From positions 4,875,001-4,939,000 of the forward strand of contig NZ_CP016353.1 in assembly GCF_002240355.1 (NCBI RefSeq): a stretch of DNA of 64,000 bases, in the 5' to 3' direction. The DNA is from Prauserella marina (GTDB lineage Bacteria; Actinomycetota; Actinomycetes; Mycobacteriales; Pseudonocardiaceae). Below, one piece after another: positions 1 to 54,085 of this stretch. The notes beneath the pieces are model-generated. The model did no database searches. It had not been told where the DNA came from and saw only the letters and a program-made list of their open reading frames with translations. Positions within the stretch are counted from its first letter, which is position 1, and every line of letters begins with the position of its first letter. The position numbers and the translations under genes were made by a program.

Positions 1-2316
1 CTCCATGACGTCGGCAACGGTGACCGTGCGCTCCGGCCCCGAGATCACCGTCATCGCCGCCAACTCGCCAGAGACGAGTGGCTCAGCGGCTTCGGTGCCG
101 GTCTTTTCCGGTGCGAGCACCACGCTTCCGGGGTGGAGGGACAGTAGTTCCGCGAGCCGGGACCACGCTCGGTCCGCGTCGTCACGAGCACCCGTCACCT
201 CGACGAAAGAGCCCGGCGTCGATCGGTCCAATCGTTGCGTCGGACGAGTTTCCGCCGCGATGACCGCGCCGACCGCGTCCCGTACCGCCGAGAGCCGTAC
301 CGCCAGTTCGGTCAACGATGTGGTGTCGGTGGGTTTCGCCGCGGCTACGAGACCGGCGGCCTTCGCCGCGGTCACGAGATCTGCGACCAGTGCGTCGGTG
401 TCGCCGATCAGCCGTCCCGGAGTGCCCTCTGCATTGGATCGCATCGTGCTGAACCCAGCCAGCCTGACGTCGATGCGGGCCCGCAGCCGGTCCTTGTTGT
501 CGCCAAGTTCGGAAACGAACGCGTGAGGCGCGTCCTGAGCACGCAGGTCCGCCACCGCGCTCTCGGTCGCCGACAGCAGGACCGTGTCCGCACGCAGCTT
601 TTCGGCGACATCGCGCAGCGCCTGCCGCTGCCGGTTCAGTGCCTCGAACCGGGGCAGGACCGCCTCCAGTGACGGCTCCATCGTCTGCTCTGCCAACGGA
701 CTTCCGACGGCAGCTGTGCCATCGGCCGTCCCGAGTCCGCGTACCGCCCGCTCCAGCTCAAGGCCCAGTTCCGCCGCGATGTTCCAATGGAGAACGGCCC
801 GGTGCCGCGACGTACGGGCCGCTACCTCGTCGCCTCGGATCGACGCGTCGACAGCGCGCAGGGCATGTCCCTTCGCGCCTTGCGTGTCCACGAGAACGTT
901 CCAGGGGTTGTCCGCATCGCTGCCGAGGTGGCCGGTGAGCTGGGACCGGTAGGCGGTCAGGACGTTCAGCACGTGCTCGATCCGGCCCGCCTGGCCCGGC
1001 GCAGCGGCCATCGCCTTACGCAGAAGTGAACCGAGTTCCATTGTGGACCGGTCGATCTCGTCCTCGACGGCACCCGGCACACCACGTTCGCCCCTGCTCG
1101 TACCGACGAACCGGTCTTCCACCGCACGCCGGTGCCGCAGCCGCAGTGCGTTGAGTTCACCGACCCGTTCGAGCACCTGACCAACGGTGAGCGCCGCGCC
1201 GACACCGGTATCGACCAGTTCACCGGGGAGGTCCGACACGAACTCACCTGATGGCAACAGATCCGGCATTCTGGCTTCCGCGATCAGCTCGCGGACCGCC
1301 TGGAATCCTCGCCGCGTCTGCTCCCGGTACCTGGCCACCACCCTCGGCGGTTCACCATTGGCGACCGCCGTGTCGGAACGGCCGATCGCCAGGACCCACG
1401 CGTCGACGGCAGTGGGCAGCGCTTCTCGCAGAATCCGCGCGGAGTGGTGGTAAGCCGAGACGAACGAAGGCCGTGCCGAAGCGGCCGAGTCCAGATCGAC
1501 GGCAAGCGCCTCGGCGGCGGACACCAGCTCTTCCACCGTGGTGCCGCGCCGGAACATGTCGTGCCCCGCCGGAAGCTGGTAGAGACCATCGGCAAGCGAG
1601 GACAGCTCGCGCTCGGCCCGTCCCCCGGGGTCCGCCTGCTGCTCGGCCCGCGCAACGCGCAGCCGCTCCACGGAGGAGACGACCTCGCCCATCGTGCGAT
1701 CGAGGGACCCGAAACTCAGCCCGCCAGACCGCAGCAGCGGCGAGGAAGGCAGGGTCCTCGCGAACTCCGGCGGCTCGGTGACCGGCTGCGCCGCGTATTG
1801 GGCGAGCTGGGCGACGGCGTAGTCCAGCTCCCGCAGGTGCGCCGAGGCGGTCTCCCACGCCTGGTTGGCCTTGTCGCGTATCTCCGCCGCGAAGACCCCG
1901 CCGTCGACGGCGACGACAGCGACGCTGTCGCTCACGAGCTGGAGCGCGCCGTCGGTGCCGAGGACAGCGGCCTCAATCGAGTCCAGTGTGGTCCGGACCT
2001 GCTGGGTCCGGTCAGTCATGGCCGCGCGCCTGCCGTCCAGCTCGTCGAGCACGTCGCGCAGCTCGCTCATGGCCGCGCGAAGGAGACCACCGTCCGGTGC
2101 GGGCGGGCGTTGTTCCCCTGCCAACCGTGCGTCGTCGGCGTCGTCAGTGTCGTCAGCCCAGGTCCTTGCCGCCTCCCGTAGCTCGGCCTGTGCCGCACTC
2201 AACCGCGCGACGTGCCGCAGTACGCCGCCTGCCGTCACCTCGGGCACGAACCGGGTGGCGCTCGCGAGCACAACGTCCTCGGCAACGGCCTTTTCGACGG
2301 AGCGCCCCGACGGCAG
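1..2316 (-). repeat. Large alpha-helical repeat R3
   Basis: Third copy, from LPSGRSVEKAV to the shared end motif VTVADV at the window edge. It is ~400 bp shorter than R1 and R2 because the beta segment present near the end of those copies is missing. A similar beta segment (LRYSKRHDAYRGFVSG) sits instead between M6 and M7, near 3900-4180. Confidence 0.7.
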
Positions 2317-5300
2317 GCCGGAGTGGAGTGCGATCTCGTCGTCGCCGCCCTTACCCGCGACACCGTCCACATAGGCCGACCCCTTGACCTCCGCCCGCAC
2401 CACGTCCGCGTGCTCGGCGAAGTCGTACCCAGCCAGCTCGCGAAGACCATCAGGCAAACGCTCGTTACTCGGCAGCAACCCAGCCAACCACCGAGCGGCC
2501 AAATGCGACACCGACTCCGCCGCGACCTCGTCCTCGACAACCCGCGACTCGGTCAGCCCCTCCGGCCGCGACGTCCCCCGCTCACCCACCGTCACCCAGT
2601 GCGCGACCTCGTGCATCACCCACGTGACCAGGTGAGCCGCCGTCACCCCGTCGCCGACCCGCACCTCAAGCCGGGGCTGCTCCGCACCCTGGTCCCACAC
2701 CAACCGGGCATTCGGGGTGCTCTCGGCAACCACCGACACCGAATCCAGCAACGACGGCACCAACTCCGCCGCCCGGCTCGCAAGGTCACCACCGACGACC
2801 TCGTACAACCCCCGCGTCACCATCGCCTCGACGAACGGACCCACCGCAGCCAGGTCATGCCGCGAACGCACAGCCGAAAGGAAACCGACGTGCTCTCCCG
2901 TCGGCATTCCTCGCCGGATCTCGGCCAGCAGCGCGGAGACGTCCTTGATCGCGAGGTCCGCCTCAGCAAGGGTCGCACCGATCGCCACGGGCTCCTTGTC
3001 CTTGGTACCCGGCCCTTCGTCTGCAGCCAACTCGGCTTCAATCGCCAGCCGCGCACTCCGCGCGAGCTTGCGCAAGCCCGTCACGGCACGGACATAGTCG
3101 GCCCTGTCCTTGTCAGCGACCAGTGCTGATTCGGCCATCCGGTCCGCGAAACCGTCGACATCCGCTGCCCACTTTTCGCCTTCGCGCCGCAATTCCGTAC
3201 GCAGCTCGGCAAGACGCAGCTCATGTTCCGCCAGCAGAGCGCCGTTCACAAGCGCTTCGGAAATGTTCCCTCGCTCCAGGGCGATCCGCTCGTCTCGAAC
3301 CGTCTGACGCCAGCTCGCGCGCAGATCGCGCAAATACAAGGTTTCGGATCGCCATCCGTCCCAACCCGACGAAAGCCTCTCGAATTCGGTCGAGCCGAGC
3401 CGGAGTGGGCGTGGCATCGTCGCATCGTCACCCCAGTGGGGTTCGGATCGCGGCGGCGAGCCCGCCGCGATCGCGAGCCTGCGCAGCGCGATTTCCAGTT
3501 CGATGACGAAGGTGGTCGCGTATTCGCGTCCCACGAAGGACAGTAGCCCGTCGCTCATGGGGGAAGAAATCCGTCCTAGAACGACATTTGCCCTGCGCAT
3601 CGTCAACCAGGCAAGGCCATCGAGATCGGGACGGCCCGCCATGACCTCACGCAAAAGCGAACGCAACCCGCGCACCGCTCGGCGCAGTTCGACGGCGTGC
3701 TCATGCTTCCAGTGTTCGTCCCCGATCCGCGTCAACCACAGATCCAGCCCAGCCACAAACCGTGCGAGCTCCGCCATCACGGTGGCCAGCTCCGGGCCGC
3801 CCAGTGCGCGAACGTCGGCCACAAGGTCACCCGCGGTGGTCCCCGAGACCAGTTGATGCCCCGCCTCGAAGTTCCGCTCGGCGAAGCCGGTGTCGGGGCG
3901 CTGGGGACTTTCGATGATCAGCTCGAACGGCTGAGGCGGGCCACCATCCACACGCAACAACGCCACGGCCGGTCCAAATTCACCAAACCGGACGGCGCTT
4001 TCGGGCCCTGGCGCCGTCAGCATCAAGGGCCCAGTTCCGGAAACGAAGCCGCGGTAGGCATCGTGTCTCTTCGAATACCGTAGCTCTGCTCGCCACAACG
4101 TACGGTTTGGATCGCTCCGCGACCACAGCTCGGCAGTCACCACGTGCTTCAGTCTCGTGGGGAGGATGGAGAGCACGTGATCGCTTGCCGCATCCGCGAC
4201 GCGATAAGTCCAGAATCCGTCGATGCGAGCGAGCTCGCTGACAGCGCGCTTCCAGGCCGCGATCAATCGTGCGCCAAGAGTCGACTCTCGCCACTGGCCG
4301 AAGTCCGGTTCCTCCTGCCAGTGCCAGCCTGGCTGTCCGGAGTGGAGTGCGATCTCGTCGTTGTCGCCCTTACCCGCGACATCGTCCACATAGGCCGAAC
4401 CCTCGGTCCGTTCCCGGACGGTGTCGGCGTACTCGGCGAAGTCGCGTCCCGCCAGTTCGCCGATGTCCTCCGGCAACCGGCCCGCACCCGGCAAGTCCAC
4501 CAGCCACCGCGCGGCCAACCGCGACACCAGCTCCGCCGCGACCTCGTCCTCGACAACCCTCGACGCAGCGAGTCCCTCAGGCCGGGCGGTCCCCCGCTCA
4601 CCGACCGTCAGCCAGTGCGCGATCTCGTGCATCACCCACACCACAAGGTGTGCGACCCGCACACCGGGACCGAACCGCAACTCAAGCCGAGGCAGCTGCG
4701 CGCCCTCGTCCCACACCAACCGGGCGTTGGCGTCGAGCTCGGAATGAAGCTCCGACACCGACCGCAACGCCACGGGCACCAGATCGGCTCCCCGCGCAGC
4801 CAGCTCGCCACCTACCACCGCGTCGAGCCCGAGCGTCGCCAGCGCACCGACGAGCTGCGAGACGTCGGCGAAACTCTCCGCCGAGTCGACCACGCGGACC
4901 AAGTCCAGGTTGGGGTCGACATCGACATCGCGGTCGGGGACGGCTGGGACGACGTCGAGGTCGGCCTCGGGCGCCCTGCGCCTCCGCTCCCGCACTCGCT
5001 GTGCTTCCATCGCCGCGGCGGTCTGACCGTCCAGCGTTACCGGGTCGACGAGATCCTGGTTGCGCGCGTGTGCCAGCGCCACCTCGGCTTCGCGCCATGC
5101 TCTGTCCGCGATGTCCGAGTACCACACGACATCGCGGTGCCCGTGCCTCGTCATGAGGTCGTCGATGGCGGTCTCGGCGTACAGCGCGCTGCCGATCAGC
5201 ATCGAGAACTGGTCCAGCGCGCCGACAACGCTGGCGAACTCCGCGGTGGTGTCGTCGGCGGTGGCCAGCTCCAGTGTTTCGATCTGCTCGACGGCGAGGG

Positions 5301-29300: not shown

Positions 29301-32300
29301 TTCCCGAATCTCCGGCCACGATGTCCTGACGAACGGTTCCGAGCTGCTGAACCGCCTGCTCGGCCTCTGCCTCGGCCCAGCGGTTCAGGGTCGCGTTCTC
29401 GGCATCGCCGACCTGGGTCACCCTGCTGGACGCGGCCCAGCGGTCGCCCTGGGTGGCCGAATCCGGCGCCATCGTCCTGCCGACCTCGGTGGCCGGAACC
29501 GGATCGACGAGCCCGCCGCCCTCACCGGCCCGGTATTGACGCAAGGCACCTTCGATCTCGGCGCGGACGGCGTCGGTCTGCATCTTGAAGAAGTCCGGTA
29601 TTCCGGCTTCGGGTCGCCCGAGCTGGAACAGCAGCGGCCTGCCAGAGCGCCCCGTACTGGCAAAGGCGTCGGCAGGCCACCGGGTCTCCGGCGAGATCGC
29701 GATCGTGACCGGGCTTTTCTGCACCCTGAGCCCGCCCACGTTCTCGAACTCGGCCCCGGTTACGCGCACGTCGCCCGCCTGGAGACCACGATCGAGCTCG
29801 ATCTCGCCCCACAGTCGCGATCCGTCACCGAAAAGGAACGTCTGGTACGTGCGGTGCTCAACCCACGGTGTGCTACCGGACTCGTCGGTCACCACGACCT
29901 CACGCTTGACGAGATCACCGGTGGCTCCGACGAGATCGCCGGGGACTCCGTTGAGAAGCCGTGGCATGGGCAGCCGCATCTGCTTCAGCAGATCCTTGAC
30001 GACGATCGTCGCCGATGCCTGCACCGAAGGCAGCGTGTCCACGGTGACCGGCCCACCGGCGTCAACGCCCGGCGTCGCGTCCGTGGTCGCCGAGTCGCCG
30101 TCCGTGCTGGTTCCGGTGTCCTCCGTCGCGGTATCGGGGCGGGTCGCGTCCGGCTCAGCGCGCGGAGCGCCCTGTGGTGCGCTCTCCAGCGTGCGCAGGC
30201 GCTCGTAGGCGGCCGACAGCTCGGCCCGCGCCCTGTCGAGTTCGGCTTGGGCCCGCTGGACATCCGCCTCCCGCAGGCTCAGCCGGGCCTCGGCGAGGTT
30301 GCGGTCGAGCGGCCGCGGCGATTCGAGTTCCGCCAGCCGCCGCGCTTCCACGGCAATCTTGTCCCGCTCCACGACGGCGGCGTCGAAGGTCTCCTTCGCC
30401 CCCCGCGCCCGTTCGGCCGCTCTGCCGAGGTCCTCCTGAGCTCGCGAGTGCTCAGAGCCGGTCGACTGCTCGGTACCCGTCGAGTCCACCCGCGAACTCT
30501 CGACGCGCTGTTGTGCGTCGACGACTCCCGCTTCGGCGTTGTTCAGCTCCGTCATCGCCTTGTCGACCCTGGCCTCGTGTGTGGTCAGCCAGGCTTCGGC
30601 TTTCGTCCGCTCCAGCGGTTGCGGCTCTTCCAGCCCGCGTAGCCGTTCGGCTTCCCTCGCCACGGCGTCCCGCTCGGCGACCGCCGCGTCGAACTCGCTC
30701 CGCGCCCGCTGCGCGCGGTCGGCCGCATTGCTGAGCTCTTCCCTTGCCTGCGGGGTTTCCGGGCCGTCCACTCGCGACGGTGCGGCATCGCCGGTGCTCT
30801 GCTGCTGTTCCGGTGCCCTGCTCTCGGGCGTGCTCTCCCGCTGGGAACCGCCGTCGGCGACGTCGCTGTCACGCGACCCGGTCTCCCTCGGCTCGGGTGA
30901 CGGCTGCGGCTGGCGCGGCTGCTGGGATTGCTGGTCGGCCGCTGCCGGTTCGTCGCCACCACGCGAGGGGGCCGCGTTCTCGGCGCGCGCGTTCTCCACG
31001 ACCGAACCCTGTGGGCTCTCCGGCGACGTTGGCCCGCCGCTCTCGGCTGTGGCGACCTGCCCCGCCGGGCGTTCCGGTGCTTGCGGGGGCGACGCGGAAG
31101 ACTGCGGGGCGGTCGTCCCCTGGGAACCGCTTGTCCCCGAACTCGCGGTCTGCGAGGGGGCGCTCGCCGTGGGACTCGCCGCCTGCGCTCCCGCCGGTGC
31201 GGGTGCGGCCGCTCTCGCGCCGGAGAGATCGGAGATCAAGCCGGGCCGGTTGAGGACGGTCGTACCGCCCACCCTGATTCCGTTCGGCGCCTTGATGTCG
31301 GCGCTGAAATTCCGGATGCCGGAGCCGAACGCCGACGCGGGGGTGGTGATCTGGGGTATGCCCTGGAAACCGATCGTGGCTTCCAGGAATCCGTTCGCGG
31401 CCCCCTGAAGCCAGCCGGGCTGGTCTCCGCCTGGAGTGCGACGGCTGGCGTCCGGCACGGCGGGAGTGACCTCGCCGACCGGGTTGATCTTGTGGAACCT
31501 GGACAGCTCCGGATCCGCCGCCGCCTGGGCCGCGAAATGGGCCGCCATGGCGTTGCCGAGCGGCTGGGCCAGCGCGCCGCCCGCCGCCCCTGCCGTGGTG
31601 AACTTGATGATCGAGCCGTTGAAGTACCTGGTTATCGGCACGCTGTTGGCGAAAGGAAGGAAAGCACTGGTGACGGCCGTCGAGGCCATGGTGGTCAGCA
31701 ACGAGCCAGGTGCGGGCTTCCAGGCGCCCTCCTCGAACCCCATCGCCGCAAGCTGGTTTTGGGTCTGCGCGGTCGCGACGGTGTGCATGGCACCGGCCAA
31801 GCCCGCGCTGAAACCTGCGTAACCGGCTACCGCCATGCCGAGTTCCCGCAGCGCGGAAACCTGGTGCATCGCTGCCGTCTGCACGAAGGGACGTGCCGCC
31901 GGCGCGACCCTGGCGAGGTTGCGCGCGGAAGGGTTCACGAGCGCCCTGCGCACGGCGGGCGACATGAGCTGTGCCGCGAGCCGCGACGTCGCGCCGTTGC
32001 GGACCGCCTGCGACACGAGTTGCAACTGCCCGCGCATGGCCCATGACGAGCGGGCGATGTAGGTCGGGGTGAACGACCTTCCGGCTTCCCTCGCGAATTG
32101 CCACGAAGCCGTCCCCGCGGTGCGAAGCCCTGACGCGGCGCCCGCGCTGATGGTCCTCATCCCGGACCGCGCACCGGCCGCCGCGCCGCTCCAGGTCAGC
32201 GAGAACGTGTAGCGCTTGATGTTCGACGCCGTCATCGCCTTGATCGCCGAAGCGATCGCGCCCAGCGCCGCCCGCAACAACGCTGGGAAGGCAGCCACCC

Positions 32301-32835
32301 TGCCGAGCGCGGCGACGAGGCTGGAACCGGCCGTGAACAGGGCAGCGCCGAGGTAAAAGGAAACTTCGATCCACAGTGCGACGTTCATCGTCGCGTACAT
32401 GTTGATCGCGTTGACCAGCTCACCGATGAGGTAAGCCTGCTGCATGACGATCTCGCCCTTGACCCTGGCGATGTCAAGGAAAGCCTGGGCGACCTTCGAC
32501 GCTTCCAACGCGAAGATCGTCGGCGCGCCATCACCGATCCAGACCACCTGGATGCCTTGAGCCAGCGCGGCGACCTCTTTCGCCCGCTCACCGAGCGCCC
32601 TTACGGTCGCGAGTTCGTACTCGTAGGCCCTGAGAAGGCCGTCGAGCGAGGTCTTGGGCCGTTCGCCGATGATCGCCGCGACAACCGTCGAGACAAGCTT
32701 CGACTCGTCGATGACCTTGGCACCCGTCATCCGCGCGAACGGGTTCCAGGAATTCACGATCCATTCGTCGGCGGCGGTCGCGAATTGCTGGATCTGCGCG
32801 TCGTATCCCTCGAAAAAGCTGTCGTACGAACTCAC
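1..32835 (-). CDS. Giant T7SS-linked multidomain protein (>10,945 aa, C terminus outside window)
   Basis: One reading frame runs without a stop from GTG 32835 off the left edge of the window. In this frame the upstream stop is at 32871-32869 and GTG 32835 is the only usable start before the coding region. The first ~100 residues are helical with a W-I-G motif near residue 96, like WXG100-fold heads of T7SS effectors. Hydrophobic helices follow (about 147-205). Then come a Pro/Ser/Thr/Gln linker (about 540-690), a coiled coil (694-882), beta-rich segments, two winged helices (2410-2618), two amidoligase/HExxH units (2630-3973), an amidohydrolase-like barrel (4392-4851), membrane-like segments (5016-5382), and helical repeats with HExxH modules to the window edge. 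I saw no cysteine in my translation. It lies 43 bp after a small gene of the Esx cluster and next to eccC, so T7SS export is the likely role. Size and architecture fit polymorphic toxin-like giant proteins. Biochemical function is unproven. Confidence 0.9.
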   Translation of the reverse strand, partial: MSSYDSFFEGYDAQIQQFATAADEWIVNSWNPFARMTGAKVIDESKLVSTVVAAIIGERPKTSLDGLLRAYEYELATVRALGERAKEVAALAQGIQVVWIGDGAPTIFALEASKVAQAFLDIARVKGEIVMQQAYLIGELVNAINMYATMNVALWIEVSFYLGAALFTAGSSLVAALGRVAAFPALLRAALGAIASAIKAMTASNIKRYTFSLTWSGAAAGARSGMRTISAGAASGLRTAGTASWQFAREAGRSFTPTYIARSSWAMRGQLQLVSQAVRNGATSRLAAQLMSPAVRRALVNPSARNLARVAPAARPFVQTAAMHQVSALRELGMAVAGYAGFSAGLAGAMHTVATAQTQNQLAAMGFEEGAWKPAPGSLLTTMASTAVTSAFLPFANSVPITRYFNGSIIKFTTAGAAGGALAQPLGNAMAAHFAAQAAADPELSRFHKINPVGEVTPAVPDASRRTPGGDQPGWLQGAANGFLEATIGFQGIPQITTPASAFGSGIRNFSADIKAPNGIRVGGTTVLNRPGLISDLSGARAAAPAPAGAQAASPTASAPSQTASSGTSGSQGTTAPQSSASPPQAPERPAGQVATAESGGPTSPESPQGSVVENARAENAAPSRGGDEPAAADQQSQQPRQPQPSPEPRETGSRDSDVADGGSQRESTPESRAPEQQQSTGDAAPSRVDGPETPQAREELSNAADRAQRARSEFDAAVAERDAVAREAERLRGLEEPQPLERTKAEAWLTTHEARVDKAMTELNNAEAGVVDAQQRVESSRVDSTGTEQSTGSEHSRAQEDLGRAAERARGAKETFDAAVVERDKIAVEARRLAELESPRPLDRNLAEARLSLREADVQRAQAELDRARAELSAAYERLRTLESAPQGAPRAEPDATRPDTATEDTGTSTDGDSATTDATPGVDAGGPVTVDTLPSVQASATIVVKDLLKQMRLPMPRLLNGVPGDLVGATGDLVKREVVVTDESGSTPWVEHRTYQTFLFGDGSRLWGEIELDRGLQAGDVRVTGAEFENVGGLRVQKSPVTIAISPETRWPADAFASTGRSGRPLLFQLGRPEAGIPDFFKMQTDAVRAEIEGALRQYRAGEGGGLVDPVPATEVGRTMAPDSATQGDRWAASSRVTQVGDAENATLNRWAEAEAEQAVQQLGTVRQDIVAGDSGTHLLVRPDGSALAFTTSTSSDVSAGSVRIEQSETRFQHGIVRQDGNHSIVLPREYGQGSGLREQQVTLIESALSTLSDSVPAGPRARDGYVPPAYNPDATWVWSEGEGRSRLLHVDGARSSDTGSAHFDPRSPGDAAADKAVRDALDVEWAGHPVPPSMTAFGPAGIPALTRTTDAGIVNVHTSSSVVTVRTTTTGELNPGTARVSRPRLAVIDGVTRQLEPMKVEIGHGTSPAATRQLWRDALGTIVSDTKGMGPLANPAATHAASPSMRATVDVVRASAADPMAKVLPASASRQLSKVFPPSVSALSASDFPRSTVSNTLTDGATTGNRAAETPVLPVTVPAERFGRNVMTVLRKLVAADHTVLGMADGWQRGQPGAFVQVRQPGGAELLIVFETPQATSARASLAHTQALHSTSPDWLQGKAKVEAEVFGAVPRPSDMGSIRIELLRTPETGGVHSPPRSDADTGTSRPERESATINDFRLRKPPGDTFTRPPRVSEEPPVPQSPPPPPPPEKSVVWTEKGDGKWDLYEVTTNADGTTTRRLMVPGVTESGQITVQYRRRFGGGYKVLQEVGNERGEIVTKRLTGNISRTAYWEQKDNSPSFARDGQALRRGPDGREYSVKTRGIHVPWEGGTRFVPLPQHVAYDNVGVSLERLPREPADAPAAPESKPAPTRPVPPTGETIVAPEAMAESKAIRSLSERLGLTPEQTVEAVIGLARGVAQSPSASSMWEVGTAELPSWRIEGTLRGEDGQRASVGMKVAEDGTLSDLHARPAQNWWQKAGSGDAAPRGPITIQEHVASTAPLPPRGDFADGTAIARRLGLLHHGGDVESVRPVMKPDGELGIEQVRTWQPAPYTRPPEATAEATTVQAEAVRDAIEADLRAERSAEDGARSDEVIGVMGTDQTMAVEVFGDGTRIAVQYVIDADAATSSVRPGTFILTGTGWQQSAPFTYVLPPHAAGTAAATNAHVAAELAHARSQAHAMAAQRPLTHGRDPVVSDGRSESEGTARQGQVRRYQTRSVAVFEHWAGRPRNASPASVMSLRTSDAEFVNMAVSGVVREGISDVVAVSGADTGTALLHRGDGSTEAVRFRFRPVTEGLVDSRDGTVDITPGEYRYDGGQWRQTTPTEITLSPTRLTTDATAPEQIRQQVVAALEAPRVLKPRSGWLADDMSGGGRSGRLPDLEGGTGRSVVRGWTKVDNTVHATGGDWGARPARGGDTGGRPDYLSPNWQRPPLGERVADHLRELIRDGHWQPGEQLVISRLHSEIGTTRDGVRSGLRLLEAEGLVEFSANKWHVARGRPDWTPGDVGGRSARLPELDESGTGRSVVRQWTKVDNTVYATGGDWGARSSGSSRPFGELTASVRRLQKLPLAERVAGELKDLYADLHEAGNLDIGQRLNMSEIQREIGVSADVVRAAMTILVGEGVVSRPESGRGYVFNGPPAVTPEKPGTLPYEIFRSLHDNAFLAGRLGAILPQEDPTDPWRPTGSTRPFGLELEFELPGDPSNWRSTLELIAAQLHTERLSKHSRLGGVDEYGYSTDRDNWALTYDETVAGEVVSPILFDNPQTWRDVATVLEILRAHGATVSPRVGGHIHVGTGDFVGRFDLYNELGRFVDAHRDELIRLSTDPVRGEHRGTRYATPGTFPAEGYRNPGDMFDRRTNREMLGVNGIVGNKRDHIEFRAFDGSLDLRTWRARVALSTGIVDAVAAGAVASPAQPQPIGHHLSTFGQDSRSPEATAGFRSMLGAMVDGVRPAVAIPLLSSVIGLYATTRPQPAELASSERSEWLYHSQAGGTLAVTAPEGKPRSVRGVALGAAGQRYELDLSLVPDRDDDTGSTFKAEHPQYGTVLIGLSDPYTTPPSSIEIIFMVGSHIQDVARLWYQNSAVPGRPLPSVREATDSELQGEAELAHRRWKEGRAGDPDERNARRARAFGTVALEPGDEDWAGRAVLDLLREAADDVFGGDPGWAVRQAEELLVGMRFTSVRADEAQPRARLITGADGNQTLEIPLEGPISIAELTRRVVHELLHTAQTWPKDESAEDRALGVQQREIGAALVESLLDDWLRRYVGESRVDEDEIALVESIREAYPVDGPYTRRLADTGAEDERVEHAEFRSGEETPQSGTLPYEVFRRVYENVVGQRPFRTVPSLAEPTDLWLPRASTRAFGLEIEFDFEQPLARDGRRSKLDLIAAELHGAGLSQQDRLSRQGEYSTERNAWTVVRDATVAGEIVSPILFDSPQTWRDVERVLDILRRHGATVSARTGGHIHVGTGDFAGSFDRYNDLGRFFDAHRDVLFRMASDPVRGEHRGPRYATPGAFPVEGYLDAEDLYDRRTNHEALGFKGVLGDENDHVEFRVYDGSLDLGVWRQRVALSTGIVDAVARGVDVPEGQRAQAIGYHLSAYGQDSGSPEASASFRALAGPIVNGLPSAVAVPLLSSIMNLYTSTRWQPAELASLDRAEWLYHSESAGTVAVTAPDGRMRSIRGFVVGEQGTRYDLDLSLRPVSDEPGSGYWAEHPEYGTILVGPSEMYLAPSTSIEILFMDGADIRDIAVLWYQDSGVPGHSLPAVREASTAELAERARHAHRNWAALRSGDTDEQQRRRAAALGTIALEPGDEHWAGQVVMDLLRDAADDVFGGDPAWAVREADELLSSLRFVMVKPDEVSPRARLITDADGNRTLEVPLDGPVSIAELTRRVVHELLHTAQTWPKDESAEDRALGVQQREVGAALVESLLDDWLRGYVGEPRVDEDEIALVESIREAYPVDGPYTRRLADIGADDARVEHAEVIPGMETPWGGGLPELYQREGGALEATARQAVGNAQTARDAYAAAQEKHAETIERTQGQIPYTKWVAQQLGTLTGTGADDPWVLTMVATMSPASPEEVLGVVIDDSVKAEPPPALAPEINEMGAAELLGSVAAHTESLVEGFGKASINLVSAQRDWIAARDAALREIEAARIAAEEAGLPAQLGAERVADAVADLHGVAVEDTSANQPAGIAWLPPDLRTVWSPLGVRRDLADAVRESEPARRFAESAYRKALERLENARSELSRSKTRLLAQMGQAVHHEDNPGGFVVTSALFAGYHSMVNGGQAGKPTEELDTHVDVAVAARTELEDSITQVRAAEELRDQAQIAYVNGLWRHIERATKAGVTNREISGITGLSMDAVAKVTRKPEQDQDFLPIVDKVLDIGDWAGRLVTTLKGNQRTPSPFSELIVPEEELEQALVSRGVSARVAAYLVEPIVLPLYHNIHNHPTDYSDNRYVNLAKMPAWQREMGMLTVEFDSPIGQRGKAGGKAFYYGWLNAVREITFGRRPLVMKGKFTDARYFDAADALPENLKWRLVPGISGTEFYRPGVGGYLRLMKILHPHNGYFIAETTFAKEGVAEQLGPQAAQVLNSDWLNHVERLMGAASQIKQDLVDGKLGYSGLPAELRQLFPRDRRPSSLSELDFYDALIGNVGALREALVRAGRSAMSRTLSEVEPPKYNPNLLDMLDTIVETGQILLLHNDMGLARLQPNGLFKLGAPDERNLQPVLALLQQPEYANANIVWAHLGVGNWTELTVEHFEWLRRVLDTTTISLDVSWNVIEQHLNADPSVRETFIQFVLDYPDRLMFGTDAVNPQPSGHALRHVVDMLPIFKEIEKRPGGDEAIRKLLRQNVVRLRANAKERGEQYAFDEITSGAWDEALAGLVSWRREKLLDWVAEQREHGRTATSTASGPGDWSNNPQLLEGLRVHNAVDSRALNGVNTLPLYRYAIGQAARDAVNEFRRRVDELTARWRNRHAPTPVQDTGNLIDTPTTLAAIRAGISAREALDTLPDDERQALLTELIGNVDSVEREQLASIEGLSDLREFFERRAGTGWLVTRLLTMTGLTATGVATGLTVLGGLSAMWPQWANVIAFTSRGSASVMQTIHTQRIRVMTEGLVERGRLSPETARQFATMLQTLLPYDVNPGGLFNEIEQRVKGEVDAYTEQFFHEFDAIVNLPLQAGQRSQDRMWVAIKEFSRWLDHVNRSVGANTGSANRLTAHAGTVGKIFNTVIAGTWMVNLGGHLGEAILAGSGMDMWVPASYALVDLLFAASTVPMAVAGWAGFDASMRARYRRIQHILGFPALTVANALLTVNSAMNGDWLMAVSAATLTAATGYLSKVGIDADLNLGRGSSRKIPAATYVTGSSLIGVAMMMASGDPVVDAAGAAVAVSGPVLIALRGAWNRIRGPRSTSTYDGEVDKGAESASPAEPRRGALRSTADAWRRRIAQWRQPGVISAPETPSADTPRSGPTTVDKSGFIHAGGPTLRGGSLGAAQGVRELAGVLTAGDIHRLASHDVDLDQIAEAYGTAGLGREGVVIAGEWGGETATSLREQATIEANFGLLAGARAEAASNAVPLPGSTADAARLLGLSASEVDDLLAGAGIAPATASLPEYVQLRGIAADLYVRGHYTSESRADYIRSNPAWFTNAVNSRVVDADPLARVAGSFADRSAGLQAEIAGLQPGERDRLQSTVDAILDSADRTAWVADPVSPQDVLVATYWGGPAHGAYVAGAPAPGDAEYFRSGDLNIVGEAQRAYTRQRSRRAQYLPGYPGAGAAQRAVYRAAWDEVTELAEWETFRQTTDDIATPEGVLDAAARELELPIAVVDGEGQRTSFGDEYRTGPSDSRELLLLRNGDHFVPLLRAQPLVWRGDPPPFGEQRPPEPPPEPAGPPAPREPAPEETVPEDTTTPLPEAVRQQVDAFFDPEHNKAIPHDARAARQADGWQVTFPDGRVGTLRVSISPDVLHWKADVAATAEGPVATVELQRVMPSSLVAWAALRQSVNDLAPIAEPGSAPSVPEEATTTEPGRRSMLDRVREYWRRGVAALGEDTQDTEPADSARPTADLNVVVDSQAAFAEVSGLIEGLVTSVVDDVLGVSEAAPLVASLMDSMRRPDAILDGSGPDASIVWDGGETTPRMRVRLGEDVTLAHLVQRIAHETAHWWTITDGGQQRPEGLDAATAREHEVRAELMSWLTANWLLDKQGEHALPSDIVEQARRGPGDVSDEVRDENPVDGDYVSGLTDADADTTVTFHSGHSPWSAEPLPSGRTVEEVGAGFEDVVLANRTDTAADVTVLDLLRHVERVNTARIEYQDAAVRWFLAVDGEEFAEGERPLVPSDVSLNTAAVELRRLLDDISARRKADDKVEYGRTGFDYLIVTAKAELGETVETLRGLEDGAMHFAVAAVDELADDNPEYAADLRAQATARWLRAASHATELEHTVVRIALAARYPATTSPEFEENSGTSPLVGALAVDLGNLGSAVARFGQRVENLWRLRVRHLANIQLEQYPPEMLVLERKVLDGSAAKIYSHDAEQGVVRRGSDAERLAASARDLARDLTTFLGRNPQHAAQLRRAANVLGDAVPQAIEEWVAAIARVDKAILDGELASIPEYRERAERALRAVGELIGEARRPDLLPSGAAASDLATEFLTVHAGLKEDGTPFTMGDLLARVTELNALRIRHRRVVERRITASPDDRRADRRAEHEVRDAFEREFAALDAWLRKSAALKPESERLIGYAQRMLAMLRSQLIGLDSASEHLAHLDAAEAQAALADARVEAAESPEDADTARNAASQAHRMAIGLRRMMVLNWNTAAAYGVELELAIRQFGTEILNPRPSRPPAEEPVAAPLLEPFAPRLRAIGDAVVELRKAVVDMRTRRLELRGLGRTVVELEAQHAPREFVDTIDHRQVPLRYQLEQLTSRLRGQAPEGWETAYAIRDIEALAADLRTYADAEPPSSGGAAVFAAAARHVDLMKHALKGALYAEFEAAALWSGAHDPDADIAGLVRFRDRAEENWDQFDRLYRAAHDPVGSAAAQWRVDGPTLSYREDGTDALLTVTLVDRHLLDVDGPEGWQAKLRFDAQTWSYVGTVYGGTGHPLRGRTLRLETFGNEGIGFVDGRAPDVALIAEDGSRRTFTASEAILPRAVETPAVDPAHRLPSGALVRDLLDETGTVELVAVEGEARVEMADVVAFTAKLDELAVAIDAAATPDGSTPLPRLSQRAEATAADLINLLWTVLRPSLPELEKYIAQVVREVGTVRAGLSGMESPADRSAFAEAKRKTAAHRILLERAVRQLVLAANATPLVEPPGDEAGIAPEFDDARDDFDFLADTVLTLRAVAARLRATRAELNEFLSTVVEFDTDDVVGDLDRRRKLASGAEIRIQELVRWKQHLHVGVKELSEQLAERGDAGARAIRVLNQFSILISNAVLAEETADSIVANSPAADALITERDLVPYYDFADNAWNEAANALVHARHASEVDPRLLDANTRRAREAQFDREDVHEGLVASTVGNLLQITEDRPVTVVADGTDLDGDVHSPDEFRETSTVVSDLAVLALQDAVGGALAAGAARLVPALVSSASEISSAAGSDARLVWDEGADSPRLELRFGPGVTVAHLVLRVGREAVRSQVVDYPDFAAQGGLSESAMSRTEAAAELAEWLTARGLRDAFGADRLPQDIVELAGRRVDNAGFRFPETVDELSRGIMPSSLQFWSAAFGRLMSTWNVLAHQLVTLRESWQIWHDLVNGGDQQTADTYRIDIDQRRAVVEREAQDWISKVERLTTRFGNLVTEEDEGRADYARAASGLSRLAGLARSVVDAELRVSDAAEYAADASMLHELLWSGGGQGLAKVRVMLSAIWQDGPTSPDSAAGTASLATQVRQPWDLDELKPYIEALVTRGVGEVLPADLAAKAEPMVGPLLDGVRVTGPDGRGPGAALVWEPRESVPRLELRVGEDVTVAHLVMRVLHEIAHWVIAEQRTQSQDGNHRPHGLSPAEVFGDEVTAESVSSLAVRWLVDLPGADDLPIDFARLAFREPDQTVAEVRGVHPVGGDYVTGLAGADEGTRIVYHSQDRRPGEGRLPSRRTVTEVAADFDEGVLVAGSSTRREVMIEDVLEHVEWLNMARLDLRDEVTAWFAETEGVTVAERPAAPDGSALNRAIAGLRALLRDLHDQREAMSHRTQQLGTQLDLIFAALTDSDGAVRLMVEAADDRGAGRTDAAREKRERAGLAWEVGAAHTWELENTVVQLGVFAEQPATASPEFGERAPSSLLLREAGLDAAPLDRAWRAVVGSAGRLRVARAEWTGKVEAPGYLAEHSENDLRTLSALAGELYSREAGSDTIRRGTKAEELVALARQRATELNTLALDEPVFAEVLDRAARLLRDVLPTAVDAWMRSVALADEATANSERSDVVARYRELAERGYQAVGELLAEARRPDLLPSGGFLFDFGDEFLGIDIGSPNVHIGPRIAEPVFTVGDVLSAVTELDALRVRHRRAVEDHLGNTTEDRRHGRLAVGAVEDAIERSVRELDARLREAAAARPELESRIGHVLRTLVAFRSQLINLPGNDPNAWHALADPEGASFFAHHADMAAERGNQRSAMSVRRRAVVNWSNAAEIGMELERAVRQLGMAAVTGLSHPEPGDAEQVAAPLRRHLDRFDALEQLQARLGTTIDTMRASRIRLNATGRAVVDLRAMHVPREFVSGIGKGQRNLRADLAEHEATLHGGRSAEEPALVDQLIQEAEALATDLVVETRGGDISQADIEVLTGAAKDLAAVRGVLNEAVAAESRADDLLRLGDPADVAALVRARDEAEHAWVRLAMLLSPFTGPADAPDATRPSWFYRTGDQDDPIVVTPAASGVVVDVEQPGSWHARLRFDAQEAAYLGTVKPAPGVDFAGEQVKLMTRDSGIGLVGEHAPGEMELTVGQGFAGRLVIDDTPAEAGPVVERTSLLASGTPVGVLLDEHGAVELISGEQGVTVADVVAYAAALDHLVQRMEADSPVESAEQVAEQATRLLNELGELLLSSVLGARPELTALVGQVMAAANFIVNGLSRRQRFAEEIRDTEGAVLGDDIVLARLATWLDIVGAEQAWTSALSLERAIRRLALVAADPLRELPVEQAEDAQPAAGVRRGYNALDSGLRVLRETARTLRIRREEWRGISDAESRLTDLDEALGDGARKAALESLLRRATRDLANRVAQVQTLAVEQIETLELATADDTTAEFASVVGALDQFSMLIGSALYAETAIDDLMTRHGHRDVVWYSDIADRAWREAEVALAHARNQDLVDPVTLDGQTAAAMEAQRVRERRRRAPEADLDVVPAVPDRDVDVDPNLDLVRVVDSAESFADVSQLVGALATLGLDAVVGGELAARGADLVPVALRSVSELHSELDANARLVWDEGAQLPRLELRFGPGVRVAHLVVWVMHEIAHWLTVGERGTARPEGLAASRVVEDEVAAELVSRLAARWLVDLPGAGRLPEDIGELAGRDFAEYADTVRERTEGSAYVDDVAGKGDNDEIALHSGQPGWHWQEEPDFGQWRESTLGARLIAAWKRAVSELARIDGFWTYRVADAASDHVLSILPTRLKHVVTAELWSRSDPNRTLWRAELRYSKRHDAYRGFVSGTGPLMLTAPGPESAVRFGEFGPAVALLRVDGGPPQPFELIIESPQRPDTGFAERNFEAGHQLVSGTTAGDLVADVRALGGPELATVMAELARFVAGLDLWLTRIGDEHWKHEHAVELRRAVRGLRSLLREVMAGRPDLDGLAWLTMRRANVVLGRISSPMSDGLLSFVGREYATTFVIELEIALRRLAIAAGSPPRSEPHWGDDATMPRPLRLGSTEFERLSSGWDGWRSETLYLRDLRASWRQTVRDERIALERGNISEALVNGALLAEHELRLAELRTELRREGEKWAADVDGFADRMAESALVADKDRADYVRAVTGLRKLARSARLAIEAELAADEGPGTKDKEPVAIGATLAEADLAIKDVSALLAEIRRGMPTGEHVGFLSAVRSRHDLAAVGPFVEAMVTRGLYEVVGGDLASRAAELVPSLLDSVSVVAESTPNARLVWDQGAEQPRLEVRVGDGVTAAHLVTWVMHEVAHWVTVGERGTSRPEGLTESRVVEDEVAAESVSHLAARWLAGLLPSNERLPDGLRELAGYDFAEHADVVRAEVKGSAYVDGVAGKGGDDEIALHSGLPSGRSVEKAVAEDVVLASATRFVPEVTAGGVLRHVARLSAAQAELREAARTWADDTDDADDARLAGEQRPPAPDGGLLRAAMSELRDVLDELDGRRAAMTDRTQQVRTTLDSIEAAVLGTDGALQLVSDSVAVVAVDGGVFAAEIRDKANQAWETASAHLRELDYAVAQLAQYAAQPVTEPPEFARTLPSSPLLRSGGLSFGSLDRTMGEVVSSVERLRVARAEQQADPGGRAERELSSLADGLYQLPAGHDMFRRGTTVEELVSAAEALAVDLDSAASARPSFVSAYHHSARILREALPTAVDAWVLAIGRSDTAVANGEPPRVVARYREQTRRGFQAVRELIAEARMPDLLPSGEFVSDLPGELVDTGVGAALTVGQVLERVGELNALRLRHRRAVEDRFVGTSRGERGVPGAVEDEIDRSTMELGSLLRKAMAAAPGQAGRIEHVLNVLTAYRSQLTGHLGSDADNPWNVLVDTQGAKGHALRAVDASIRGDEVAARTSRHRAVLHWNIAAELGLELERAVRGLGTADGTAAVGSPLAEQTMEPSLEAVLPRFEALNRQRQALRDVAEKLRADTVLLSATESAVADLRAQDAPHAFVSELGDNKDRLRARIDVRLAGFSTMRSNAEGTPGRLIGDTDALVADLVTAAKAAGLVAAAKPTDTTSLTELAVRLSAVRDAVGAVIAAETRPTQRLDRSTPGSFVEVTGARDDADRAWSRLAELLSLHPGSVVLAPEKTGTEAAEPLVSGELAAMTVISGPERTVTVADVME
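2310..2910 (-). repeat. HExxH module M7
   Basis: HEVAH at 2599-2613 in HLVTWVMHEVAHWVTVGERG, then SRVVEDEVAAESVSHLA and GSAYVDGVAGKG...ALHSG. The visible gene ends with repeat R3 after this module. Confidence 0.75.
4320..4930 (-). repeat. HExxH module M6
   Basis: HEIAH at 4615-4629 in HLVVWVMHEIAHWLTVGERG, with SRVVEDEVAAELVS providing the candidate Glu ligand and the tail GSAYVDDVAGKG...ALHSG. It is 2,016 bp from M7 and very close to it in sequence, including a ~65-nt near-identical stretch (4340-4404 against 2321-2385). Confidence 0.75.
5935..8670 (-). repeat. Large alpha-helical repeat R2
   Basis: Second copy of the long helical repeat, from LPSRRTVTEV to VTVADVVAYAAALDHL, about 910 residues. 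It retains the beta segment (WHARLRFDAQEAAYLGTV). The offset from M3 to M5 is 5,424 bp, and from M5 to M7 it is 6,390 bp. Confidence 0.75.
8680..9280 (-). repeat. HExxH module M5
   Basis: HEIAH at 8989-9003 in the context HLVMRVLHEIAHWV. The Glu segment is GDEVTAESVSSLA. The tail HPVGGDYVTGLAG...YHSQ is followed by repeat R2. Confidence 0.75.
9840..10330 (-). repeat. Degenerate HExxH module M4
   Basis: Same module frame (ARLVWDEGADSPRLELRFGPGV, AHLVLRV), but the zinc motif reads REAVR at 10018-10032: both histidines are replaced by arginine. The downstream Glu region (RTEAAAELAEWL) survives. A catalytically dead copy. Confidence 0.75.
11290..14110 (-). repeat. Large alpha-helical repeat R1
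   Basis: About 940 residues starting at LPSGRTVEEV and ending at VEMADVVAFTAKLDEL. The segment is almost all Ala/Arg/Glu/Leu-rich helix, with landmark stretches RRGSDAERLAASA, RPDLLPSGA, ALRIRHRRVVE and RLELRGLGRTVVELEAQ that recur in R2 and R3. Near the end is a beta segment (WQAKLRFDAQTWSYVGTVYGG). Confidence 0.75.
14130..14730 (-). repeat. HExxH module M3
   Basis: HETAH at 14413-14427 (residues ~6133-6137) inside the common module. A helical lead-in ends in IVWDGGETTPRMRVRLGEDV, then AHLVQRIAHETAHWW, REHEVRAELMS (candidate third ligand Glu) and the tail NPVDGDYVSGL...HSG. Followed directly by the large helical repeat R1. Confidence 0.75.
15240..15570 (-). other. OTU-like tail segment without a cysteine nucleophile
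   Basis: The segment TPEGVLDAAARELELPIAVVDGEG followed about 25 residues later by LLLLRNGDHFVPLL resembles the C-terminal half of OTU-type cysteine peptidases (a strand, then a His in an N-G-x-H-[FY] context). I find no upstream DGNC-type Cys. It is either a degenerate fold or a chance resemblance. Confidence 0.3.
16690..17790 (-). other. Hydrophobic, probably membrane-spanning region of the giant protein
   Basis: Residues about 5016-5382 contain several runs of 18-25 hydrophobic residues, for example around LTMTGLTATGVATGLTVLGG, FNTVIAGTWMVNLGG, SYALVDLLFAASTVPMAVAG and TYVTGSSLIGVAMMMA. Five to seven spans are plausible. This would let part of the protein insert into a membrane, as proposed for channel-forming T7SS toxins such as CpnT. 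That is inference. Confidence 0.55.
18283..19660 (-). other. Amidohydrolase-like TIM-barrel domain in the giant protein
   Basis: Residues about 4392-4851 carry the ordered motifs of the amidohydrolase_2 superfamily. There is a His cluster HNIHNH (19549-19566) after a beta strand, LLHND, IVWAHLGVGNW (near 18646-18690), and FGTDAV with the candidate catalytic Asp at 18463-18465. All expected metal-ligand positions appear to be present, so it could be an active metal-dependent hydrolase. The substrate cannot be read from the sequence. Confidence 0.65.
20917..22932 (-). repeat. Tandem unit copy 2: amidoligase-like domain plus HExxH module M2
   Basis: Same layout as copy 1 at an exact offset of 2,016 bp: FGLEIEFDF (22777-22806), GGHIHV (22495-22512), HELLH (21199-21213). 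Around the HELLH (20958-21249 against 22974-23265) the two copies align without indels at roughly 90% nucleotide identity by eye, so the duplication is recent or has been homogenised. After it, GGGLPELYQ looks like the vestigial start of a third unit (compare GTLPYEVF). Confidence 0.8.
22933..24948 (-). repeat. Tandem unit copy 1: amidoligase-like domain plus HExxH module M1
   Basis: A 2,016-bp (672-codon) unit. The front part has FGLELEFE at 24799-24822, GEVVSPIL, GGHIHV at 24511-24528 and a downstream EFRAFDGS. These are the hallmark motifs of the amidoligase_2 family (ATP-grasp/glutamine-synthetase-like COOH-NH2 ligases). A beta-rich connector follows, then a module with HELLH at 23215-23229 and a downstream conserved Glu (QQREIGAALVES), as in gluzincin metallopeptidases. 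Activity of either domain is inferred from motifs only. Confidence 0.8.
24982..25203 (-). other. GntR-type winged-helix domain 2 inside the giant protein
   Basis: Residues about 2545-2618 repeat the GntR head pattern: LPLAERVAGELKDLYADL, IGQRLNMSEIQREIGVSADV, VRAAMTILVGEGVVSR, then a GRGYVF wing typical of GntR domains. It is more diverged from copy 1 than the linker is. It directly precedes the first amidoligase-like domain. Confidence 0.8.
25254..25332 (-). repeat. Linker motif copy 2 ahead of winged helix 2
   Basis: Second copy of the GTGRSVVR / WTKVDNTV / GGDWGAR linker, 408 bp from copy 1. The two copies differ at only a few residues (HATGG against YATGG). Confidence 0.8.
25407..25606 (-). 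other. GntR-type winged-helix domain 1 inside the giant protein
   Basis: Residues about 2410-2477 read like the N-terminal DNA-binding domain of GntR regulators: PLGERVADHLRELI, then GxxxPGEQL, a recognition-helix segment (ISRLHSEIGTTRDGVRSGLR), then LEAEGLVE and a short wing. It is in frame within the giant ORF with no start or stop around it, so it is a domain and not a separate regulator gene. Whether it binds DNA is unknown. The fold may have been co-opted for protein contacts. Confidence 0.8.
25662..25740 (-). repeat. Linker motif copy 1 ahead of winged helix 1
   Basis: Encodes GTGRSVVR, then WTKVDNTV and ATGGDWGAR. The same motif recurs exactly 408 bp (136 codons) downstream at 25254-25332, ahead of the second winged helix. 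Linker plus wHTH therefore form a duplicated unit. Confidence 0.8.
30190..30755 (-). repeat. Duplicated coiled-coil segment in the giant protein
   Basis: Residues about 694-882 are rich in Ala, Arg and Glu with heptad-like spacing. They contain two related copies of roughly 90 residues. Both carry the pattern FDAAV-ERD followed by EA-RL and then E-P-PL-R. The copies are separated by a short Ser/Thr/Gly stretch. This is probably a rigid stalk between the secretion head plus linker and the downstream enzymatic modules. Confidence 0.75.
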
Positions 32836-32877: not shown

Positions 32878-33204
32878 TCAGTACAGCTGGACATTGTCGG
32901 GGATCTCCACCCGCTGGATGTCCTCGGTGCTCTCCGCTTCGGCCACGCCGTACTCTCCGCAGGCGTTGATCACCGCTTGGGCAAGCTCGGTGAGCGACTC
33001 TCCTGTCTCGACGATCGCGTCCCGGAGTTCGGTGATCTCCGCGTCCGGATAGTTCTCCGCGAGTGCCCTGTCGATTCTGGTCGCGTCACTGAACACCGGG
33101 TTCTCGACTTCAAGGGCGTTGCTCATGGCCTCGCCGACCTCGCGCAGTCCACTGGCCCCGGCGATGGCGACGGCCGGGTCCTTGACCTCGACGTAGCTAA
33201 CCAC
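32878..33204 (-). CDS. Small acidic helical protein of the Esx cluster, function unknown
   Basis: Encodes 108 aa starting at GTG 33204, preceded by AAGGAGCAC as ribosome binding site. The product is mostly helical and acidic, with no W-x-G motif, no signal peptide and no membrane span. It overlaps the upstream YbaB-like gene by 8 bp and its stop lies 43 bp before the giant gene's start, so all are probably one transcript. Size and position suggest a T7SS substrate partner or dedicated chaperone of the giant protein, but I do not recognise a family. Confidence 0.8.
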   Translation of the reverse strand: MVSYVEVKDPAVAIAGASGLREVGEAMSNALEVENPVFSDATRIDRALAENYPDAEITELRDAIVETGESLTELAQAVINACGEYGVAEAESTEDIQRVEIPDNVQLY

Positions 33205-33702: not shown

Positions 33703-33999
33703 TCAGGCGCCGAGACCGGCACCCGCGCGCTGGTCCGCCGAGACGATGTTCACGGCAGAACGCTTCGTCGCGTTACCGCCGGCGTCCTCCGAGGCGGCCA
33801 GTGCGTCGCATTCGGCGTGGCAGCCGGAGTACTCGGCGAATACCGACTGGGCGAACGTTCCGGTGAAGTCCTCGCCGGTGATCGTCTTCACCTTGGTCAT
33901 CAGTTCCTCGATGATGCCGCGGATGGCGGCTGCCGTCGACACCCCGGAGTCACCGGCGGCGTCGACGTCACCGACCCGGTACCGTGTCACGTCTTCCAT
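33703..33999 (-). CDS. Esx-sized (WXG100-like) protein
   Basis: Encodes 98 aa from ATG 33999, with GAGGT ten bases upstream. It is helical and the length is typical of WXG100 proteins. The turn position between the two helices has no Trp-x-Gly (TGEDFTGTFAQSV instead). It carries two cysteines five residues apart (GCHAEC). It sits between a clear WXG protein and the YbaB-like gene, so an Esx partner role is likely. Assignment rests on size and context more than on motif. Confidence 0.65.
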   Translation of the reverse strand: MEDVTRYRVGDVDAAGDSGVSTAAAIRGIIEELMTKVKTITGEDFTGTFAQSVFAEYSGCHAECDALAASEDAGGNATKRSAVNIVSADQRAGAGLGA

Positions 34000-41723: not shown

Positions 41724-41754
41724 TGAACCCGCACGCAACGAAACCAGACCAGCG

Positions 41755-54046: not shown

Positions 54047-54085
54047 CGTTACACCATCCGGACGAATTCGTTCACCCATAAGGTC

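Follow-up and report, generated by a model that had tools for sequence, protein, structure and literature searches.

Gigantic actinobacterial proteins that combine several toxin and peptidase domains have been described by Zhang et al. (2012), whose passages on them report arrays of caspase-like domains and give 13,652 amino acids (aa) as the length of the longest toxin of the set (PMC3482391). Here, we analyzed a stretch of 64,000 nucleotides from Prauserella marina (family Pseudonocardiaceae), corresponding to C1:4875001-4939000 of the host genome and referred to below as the window, in which a giant open reading frame (ORF) lies beside the genes of a type VII secretion system (T7SS). To our knowledge, the known T7SS effectors that carry a WXG100_2-type head have about a thousand residues or fewer. 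The window giant has 27,313 residues, hardly any cysteine, and relatives at the same kind of locus in other genomes.

An unbroken frame of 27,313 codons

The giant ORF lies on the minus strand, begins with a GTG at position 32835 and runs through 10,945 stop-free codons to the window edge (1..32835, residues 1-10945). The original prediction, made from the letters of the window, had described a frame of more than 10,945 residues still open at that edge, and this was borne out, as in three neighboring 20-kb stretches the frame continues for a further 49 kb, with no N and no stop, until a TAG at C1:4825894. The complete giant, with 27,313 codons, a mass of 2.96 MDa and an isoelectric point of 5.1, is confirmed as a single unbroken ORF. 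Each of the five alternative frames over its 82 kb is interrupted by 107 to 628 stops, with a longest open run of 1,287 codons, while the guanine-cytosine (GC) content at the three codon positions along the entire giant is 0.68-0.75, 0.47-0.56 and 0.74-0.84, respectively. Because the other frames are rich in stops and the codon-position GC is of the coding type throughout, the frame is not due to chance. Neither is there an obvious assembly fault, since the gene lies on the 6.85-Mb contig of a genome of 6,986,413 bases in two contigs, its exact repeats are short (70 bp at most, with repeat units that share only 54-58% identity) and 11 of 12 other giants were found in other genomes.

A family of giants beside T7SS genes

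Thirteen giants were read (nine, and then four more; G129 and the weak matches G219 and G440 were left out), of which one other than the window giant is encoded in the same genome. Their sizes range from 8,437 to 27,313 aa, the window giant being the longest; the giant of G034 was read to 17,932 aa and was still open there, its open frame having a length of 22,621 in the core search. All 13 have an N-terminal head and one or more copies of a conserved core, and at all 13 loci EccB, EccC and an EccD-like protein are encoded together with a YbaB-like protein. The family WXG100_2 (PF25547) was matched by seven of nine heads, with a best E of 1.7e-14. The WXG100-like head of the original prediction is supported through these relatives, although the window head itself has no Pfam match: it aligns with the other heads and scores 414 bits against a profile that was built partly from it. 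The head (31576..32835, residues 1-420, WxG at residue 99) is defined by alignment with the relatives' heads and by the N-terminal profile. Across the class, matches to the head profile also occur in open frames with lengths between 342 and 6,554 aa, in at least 16 of 296 genomes, the host genome included.

A search with residues 1-500 matched 8 of 200 genomes of the family, again including the host, and all eight matches fell in giant frames. The core profile matched 9 genomes among 397 sampled from the order and 2 among 396 in the phylum sample, with the host genome counted in both; outside the family, the matches were weak and partial (two of the nine order genomes and the one phylum-sample genome other than the host). 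As the family, order and phylum samples differ, these counts give no overall frequency, and since the profile searches scored 2 to 10 candidates per genome, the genome counts are lower bounds. For two pairs of giants from related species (the window giant is not among them), the ratio of nonsynonymous to synonymous substitution (dN/dS) came to 0.30 and 0.45, indicating purifying selection. The giants are nonetheless built as mosaics, with internal duplications and with middles that vary between relatives. An amidohydrolase-like barrel was found in 8 of the 13. The caspase-like and zincin-like profiles each matched the host genome alone among the 296 class genomes, and we therefore draw no link to Streptomyces.

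The window giant contains 2 cysteines in 27,313 residues, as compared with about 228 expected from six nearby genes that were picked as confident. Both lie within the Cys-Arg-Ala-Gly motif of caspase-like modules, at what is presumably the nucleophile position judging from the sequence. In nine giants, 6 cysteines were counted in 137,779 residues, and in all 13 giants read, 8 in 201,600; the few cysteines of the other giants fall outside this motif. The near-absence of cysteine is a simple signature that might reveal more such giants.

Two relatives were looked at individually. The second giant of the host genome has 19,259 aa and no cysteine, and lies beside a second ESX locus (C1:241781-299560). 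The giant of Tamaricihabitans halophyticus (G018, C4:161139-232601) has 23,820 aa, likewise without cysteine, and shows kinase-like and amidoligase-like domains within the 9,953 residues scanned; no helix-turn-helix (HTH) was found in these residues, this being the sole other giant scanned with Pfam.

The T7SS locus and its mycosin

The link to a T7SS made in the original prediction is strongly supported: EccB, EccC, EccD, EccE and a mycosin-like protein are all encoded at the window locus, together with weak Esx-like genes that adjoin the giant, and the arrangement recurs in relatives, the same kind of locus being present at the 12 other giants. The outcome that had been named as refuting the original prediction, a lack of such an arrangement in related genomes, was not observed. 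The gap to the nearest upstream gene, given earlier as 43 bp, measures 42 bp. This gene (32878..33204, minus strand) encodes 108 aa with a YxxxE at residue 85 and may be the partner of the giant in secretion. At 11 of the 13 loci, the giant is preceded by a small ORF whose end lies 29-97 bp away (none was found at G145 and G092 within the limits used), with YxxxD/E near its C-terminus at 4 of the 9 loci examined for it. The next gene (33197..33655, minus strand; PF02575) encodes a YbaB-like protein of 152 aa, a candidate chaperone; at every one of the 13 loci, a homologue precedes the giant at a distance of about 450 bp or less. Two Esx-like proteins follow on the same strand, one of 98 aa (33703..33999) with a very weak WXG100 match (E 0.039) and none in Pfam, and one of 114 aa (34056..34400) with a WXG motif at residue 44 and a WXG100 match under the family cut-offs. 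The Esx pair beside the genome's second giant scores similarly low, with 26.9 and 23.3 bits against a WXG100 cut-off of 27.3.

EccC (34725..38723, plus strand; 1,332 aa) matches TIGR03924 with 942 bits and TIGR03925 with 885 bits. The EccCs of the 12 other giant loci are 66-72% identical to it, as compared with 48% for the two EccCs of the genome that lie by no giant. In all, EccC is encoded at four loci of the genome: two adjoin giants, a third adjoins an ORF of 5,134 aa, and the fourth is at 666644. Encoded on the minus strand are EccB (44746..46224, 492 aa; PF05108 and TIGR03919), EccD (46229..47629, 466 aa; TIGR03920, 177 bits) and EccE (48621..49859, 412 aa; PF11203 with 63 bits, TIGR03923 under its cut-off).

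The mycosin-like subtilase (41497..43068, plus strand) has an uncertain start codon and overlaps the ORF at 39645-41723. It scores 241 bits against a cut-off of 278.75, and all of its triad positions are replaced, with G, I and A in place of D, H and S. Asp and His are replaced throughout the 13 giant loci, and Ser at 12 of them. A structural role besides proteolysis has been proposed for mycosins. The loss of the triad is constant at giant loci and not confined to them; as a mark of giant loci alone, the degenerate mycosin is weakened by a control, in that, of two other T7SS loci in the genome, the one at 655-675 kb keeps D/H/S and the other, beside the 5,134-aa ORF, keeps only Asp.

Other genes of the window were recorded alongside. 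Two ORFs adjoining EccC (38818-39603 and 39645-41723, both on the plus strand) have no Pfam match and have partial homologues at other giant loci. On the minus strand, an uncharacterised protein of 596 aa (49859..51649) has a homologue 0.4 to 3 kb past the giant's end at four of eight other loci, and a T7SS-associated protein with an SseB domain (51630..52625; PF07179 with 61 bits, NF033532 under its cut-off) has a homologue within about 400 bp after the giant at 7 of the 12 loci whose giant was followed to its end. No giant lies in the 40 kb read around C1:6608645, where the genome has its strongest NF033532 match. The rest of the window, at 52786-63999 and beyond the T7SS genes, encodes a SigB-like sigma factor, an acyl-CoA ligase, P450-like and terpene-cyclase-like proteins and an ORF of 1,965 aa that is open at the edge, and is perhaps a biosynthetic cluster. 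Past the giant's stop lie two BTAD/NB-ARC/TPR regulators, at L006:7793-10834 (plus strand, 59 bp away) and L006:4107-6875 (minus strand). The ORF of 5,134 aa (C1:4445646-4461050), with 4 cysteines and a head-like N-terminus, lies beside a third ESX locus.

Module layout of the giant

The layout was drawn from self-comparison, from Pfam and from profiles built in this analysis. It should be noted that the Pfam and NCBIfam scans took in residues 1-9,600 and 10,946-20,300 of the window giant (residue 17,612 lies on a cut), so that residues 9,601-10,945 and 20,301-27,313 fall outside them, except for core copies 2 and 4. The domain reading of the original prediction was largely correct. DNA-binding-type and ligase-like folds had been named, and the scans agree, with two stretches each of a GntR-type HTH (PF00392) and of Amidoligase_2 (PF12224) over the Pfam cut-offs. 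Of the seven metallopeptidase-like modules claimed for the window, all were found as zincin-like modules, one of them having lost its HExxH. An amidohydrolase-like barrel was also claimed; its motif pattern was found, and neither a Pfam match nor a PDB sequence match accompanies it.

Beyond the head, a stretch rich in Pro, Ala and Glu contains an 80-residue duplication. Coordinates below refer to the minus strand of the window. The first HTH lies at 25432..25590 (residues 2416-2468) and the second, whose bounds are approximate, at 25006..25179 (about residues 2553-2610), the latter being defined by PF00392 and by an internal duplication seen in the self-comparison (residues 2339-2485 and 2476-2626). 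NCBIfam matches to GntR-type regulators fall far under their cut-offs. The Amidoligase_2-like domains, defined by PF12224 and duplication and again with approximate bounds, lie at 24136..24858 (about residues 2660-2900) and 22126..22833 (about residues 3335-3570). Each is paired with a zincin-like module, and the two pairs (residues 2625-3982) are up to 80% identical. These two modules, at 22915..23544 (residues 3098-3307) and 20914..21531 (residues 3769-3974), carry HELLH. The barrel (18259..19674, residues 4388-4859) shows an HxH, H, H, D pattern that is invariant across five aligned giants. It is followed by a hydrophobic stretch (16666..17718, about residues 5040-5390) which is common to four other giants and has a single 19-residue peak (5361) above the threshold. 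The remaining zincin-like modules of the window are the third, with HETAH (14116..14745, residues 6031-6240), the fourth, found by profile and without HExxH (9745..10329, residues 7503-7697), the fifth and sixth, both with HEIAH (8653..9324, residues 7838-8061; 4321..4929, residues 9303-9505), and the seventh, with HEVAH (2302..2904, residues 9978-10178). The sixth is the one that was modeled, with a predicted local distance difference test score (pLDDT) of 86.4.

Over the whole giant there are 14 zincin-like modules, 11 with HExxH, and twelve of them lie between residues 6031 and 15606. Three caspase-like modules, with no Pfam match, lie between residues 12967 and 14560, and two of them carry a His-Gly and a Cys-Arg-Ala-Gly motif, a His-Gly/Cys dyad pattern that we take to be that of the caspase-like peptidase type named 'lonely Cys'. 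A kinase-like (APH) domain was found at residues 15664-15842. Further matches in the scans were weak (FAD_binding_4, E 0.0032; EpmC, E 0.015; DUF5005, 28.3 bits against 29.6). PDB sequence searches with alignments of the core, the head, the amidohydrolase-like, the caspase-like and the zincin-like modules gave nothing convincing.

C-terminal units and an orphan copy

Toward the C-terminus, the window giant repeats a unit of about 2,800 residues four times, and every copy has a DUF4185-like (GH183-like) propeller, starting at residues 16313, 19167, 21941 and 24671, and then a core, starting at residues 18010, 20808, 23608 and 26353. The units are pairwise 54-58% identical, and their amplification therefore does not look recent. 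The last core copy (26353-27242; the final 71 residues of the giant were outside the scan) has no Pfam match. As a structure prediction of the core from three sequences reached a pLDDT of 40.7, we claim no fold for it.

The propeller profile matched the PDB entry 4hbs with an E of 9.4e-12 and the endo-D-arabinanase 8ic1/8hhv with an E of 0.0023. DUF4185 corresponds to GH183, and, in the passages that describe the enzymes, the catalytic residues are D33/D51 in EndoMA1 and D170/D188 in DgGH4185b, 18 apart in both (PMC10509167, PMC10115798). Propeller copy 1 has Asp 16346 and Asp 16364, a spacing that matches this catalytic pair, while the corresponding positions are Gly/His in copy 2 and Gly/Asp in copies 3 and 4. 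The pairing was made by spacing and by alignment with 4hbs; MAFFT left the Asp pair of the genome's own GH183 unaligned. The latter protein, which scores 364.5 bits against DUF4185, also carries the pair with a spacing of 18 (Asp-x17-Asp), as does an orphan ORF elsewhere in the genome. Because the Pfam scores of the giant's propellers are under the cut-off, we refer to them as GH183-like and not as members of GH183.

The orphan ORF (C1:3999039-4008908) encodes 3,289 aa, has no head and begins with an amidoligase-like part. It is colinear with residues 15969-18977 of the giant at 52% identity, and the 30 kb around it contain nothing that matches the T7SS genes of the window. In kind, it corresponds to the stand-alone cassettes that Zhang et al. 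2012 name in their abstract (PMC3482391).

Proposed function and alternative explanations

We read the giant as a single polymorphic effector, dedicated to and exported by the T7SS, that carries several payloads and its own peptidases, and give this reading, in which export, cleavage and target are all deduced, a probability of roughly one half. It is favored because of the layout of the locus, the head, the cysteine depletion, the modular shuffling and the orphan unit. From layout and homology, we infer that the WXG100_2-type head would pair with the small protein encoded upstream, that the YbaB-like protein would handle the head and that a dedicated ESX would recognize it. The chain would then be exported or shown on the cell surface, and the near-total lack of cysteine fits such a life outside the cytoplasm. 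More speculatively, the conserved core with its hydrophobic stretches, present here in four copies, could engage a membrane. The caspase-like and zincin-like modules may cleave the chain and so free the amidoligases, the amidohydrolase, the kinase-like domain and the GH183-like propeller, payloads that would suit an attack on, or a remodeling of, the arabinan-containing walls of other actinobacteria. An arabinan-bearing wall as the target is our guess, drawn from the one propeller of four that has both Asp residues.

Several observations weigh against this reading. The immunity gene that would adjoin a polymorphic toxin is not found, in that the giant is followed by a gap of 59 bp and then by a convergent BTAD/NB-ARC regulator, with regulators and no immunity-like gene downstream, and no family named as a toxin in Pfam or NCBIfam was matched among the scanned residues. 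Many of the modules are degenerate: HExxH is absent from 3 of the 14 zincin-like modules and the Cys is kept in only two of the three caspase-like ones. Foldseek gave no significant match for the model of the sixth zincin-like module (a fold outside the match lists is possible), and its best VIA match was an oxygenase and not a peptidase; the propellers score 30.1 and 30.3 bits against DUF4185, under the Pfam cut-off of 39.5, and both catalytic-type Asp residues are kept in one of the four. Among the 13 giants, the propeller is confined to the window giant. Strong modules of the zincin-like and caspase-like types are likewise seen there alone; G000b matches both types weakly, and G034 the zincin-like type. 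Finally, we know of no T7SS substrate near the size of the window giant, and the passage of 2.96 MDa is therefore unproven.

With no immunity gene beside the giant, no domain named as a toxin among the scanned residues and many degenerate modules, the classical form of such an effector is disfavored, and there is room for a role at the producer's own surface or in wall remodeling. In such a case, the giant would be exported by the T7SS and stay on the wall of its producer as an adhesin, a coat or a wall-remodeling scaffold, its enzymes acting on the cell's own arabinogalactan. For the giant ORFs of Omnitrophota, the passages on them discuss a function as adhesins or coats (PMC10066038), GH183 enzymes are described in passages of the respective studies as occurring in arabinan-bearing bacteria themselves (PMC10115798, PMC10509167), and the purifying selection seen in the two sister pairs would also agree with such a role. 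The scanned parts, however, contain no adhesin-type repeat or wall-anchor family, while many peptidase-like modules and an orphan cassette would be unusual in a structural protein, and we hold this explanation to be rather unlikely. The zincin-like modules are, on the other hand, interspersed among other modules from residue 3,098 to residue 15,606, as might be expected of a polyprotein that processes itself into ordinary enzymes for the producer's own wall or peptide metabolism, only some fragments being exported by the T7SS. Domains of the amidoligase, amidohydrolase and kinase-like types are also known from enzymes of metabolism. Yet cysteine is depleted along the whole chain, and also in giants that have no zincin-like and caspase-like modules, and a polyprotein of this type appears improbable.

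Two further explanations can be given little weight. An intracellular megascaffold or DNA-binding regulator, next to a T7SS by coincidence, would account for the two GntR-type HTH stretches over the Pfam cut-off, but the layout of giant and T7SS is found at 13 of 13 loci, the head is of the T7SS effector type and the scanned residues of the T. halophyticus giant lack an HTH, all of which makes this very improbable. That the frame is an assembly artefact or a decayed gene region is scarcely credible: we found no support for it beyond the fact that the exact protein was seen in one genome only, and it is opposed by the 82-kb open frame with coding-type GC at third positions and only short exact repeats, by relatives in other genomes that reach 23,820 aa and by the dN/dS values of the two sister pairs.

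If the giant is exported, its 2.96-MDa chain would force a rethink of what the type VII machine is able to move, and how. We further suggest, tentatively and with more doubt than conviction, that the loci represent a separate ESX subtype of the Pseudonocardiaceae, specialized in megadalton, near-cysteine-free and self-cleaving multi-payload cargo, in which proteolysis by the mycosin was abandoned while the window cargo carries its own proteases; the window protein would be an extreme case, with the core multiplied four times. The giant family may consist of multi-enzyme weapons or of wall-remodeling machines. It lends itself to testing, with 13 loci whose small partner genes resemble one another, a core domain for which Pfam has no family and a mycosin that has lost catalytic residues.

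Comparison with known systems

Apart from Zhang et al. 2012, no other description of the giant family was found in literature titles and abstract starts among the matches listed, a coverage outside which lie most subscription journals and all of bioRxiv, and the passages available from a survey of huge proteins (PMC11573180) do not mention it. In sheer size, the giant belongs with the giant ORFs of Omnitrophota, among which LiM of V. archaeovorus is larger, at 39,678 aa; these ORFs, however, come from an unrelated phylum, have few annotated domains and are poorly conserved, and no T7SS link is given in the passages on them (PMC10066038). The propellers resemble the GH183 endo-D-arabinanases in their PDB profile similarity and, in copy 1, in Asp-x17-Asp, and differ from them in falling under the Pfam cut-off, in the loss of one or both Asp residues in copies 2-4 and in being embedded in a giant. 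With effectors of the CpnT type, which carry a WXG100_2 head (PF25547), the family shares this head in seven of nine giants, Esx-like genes upstream and a dedicated ESX locus, whereas the giants have 8,437 to 27,313 aa and frames with the same head elsewhere in the class sample reach 6,554 aa. As in polymorphic toxin systems, a trafficking head is combined with variable downstream modules, and a stand-alone orphan cassette is present in the form of the one headless ORF of 3,289 aa in the same genome.

The closest likeness is with the giants of Zhang et al., as described in the passages on them (PMC3482391). SACTE_5178, with 13,652 aa, is likewise an actinobacterial protein of more than 10,000 aa with metallopeptidase and caspase-like domains, and the giants of that study include caspase-like arrays, some without catalytic residues. 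The window giant is twice as long as SACTE_5178, to which it is likened by description and not by sequence, and in its scanned parts it has no ADP-ribosyltransferase, MCF1-SHE or OTU domain; T7SS proximity is not stated in the passages on those giants. The original prediction that the protein could not be assigned to a described effector class was thus too strong, since giant actinobacterial proteins with multiple toxin and peptidase domains are already on record there. The window giant is of this known kind, and is set apart within it by its core without a Pfam family, its unusual cysteine signature and the degenerate mycosins.

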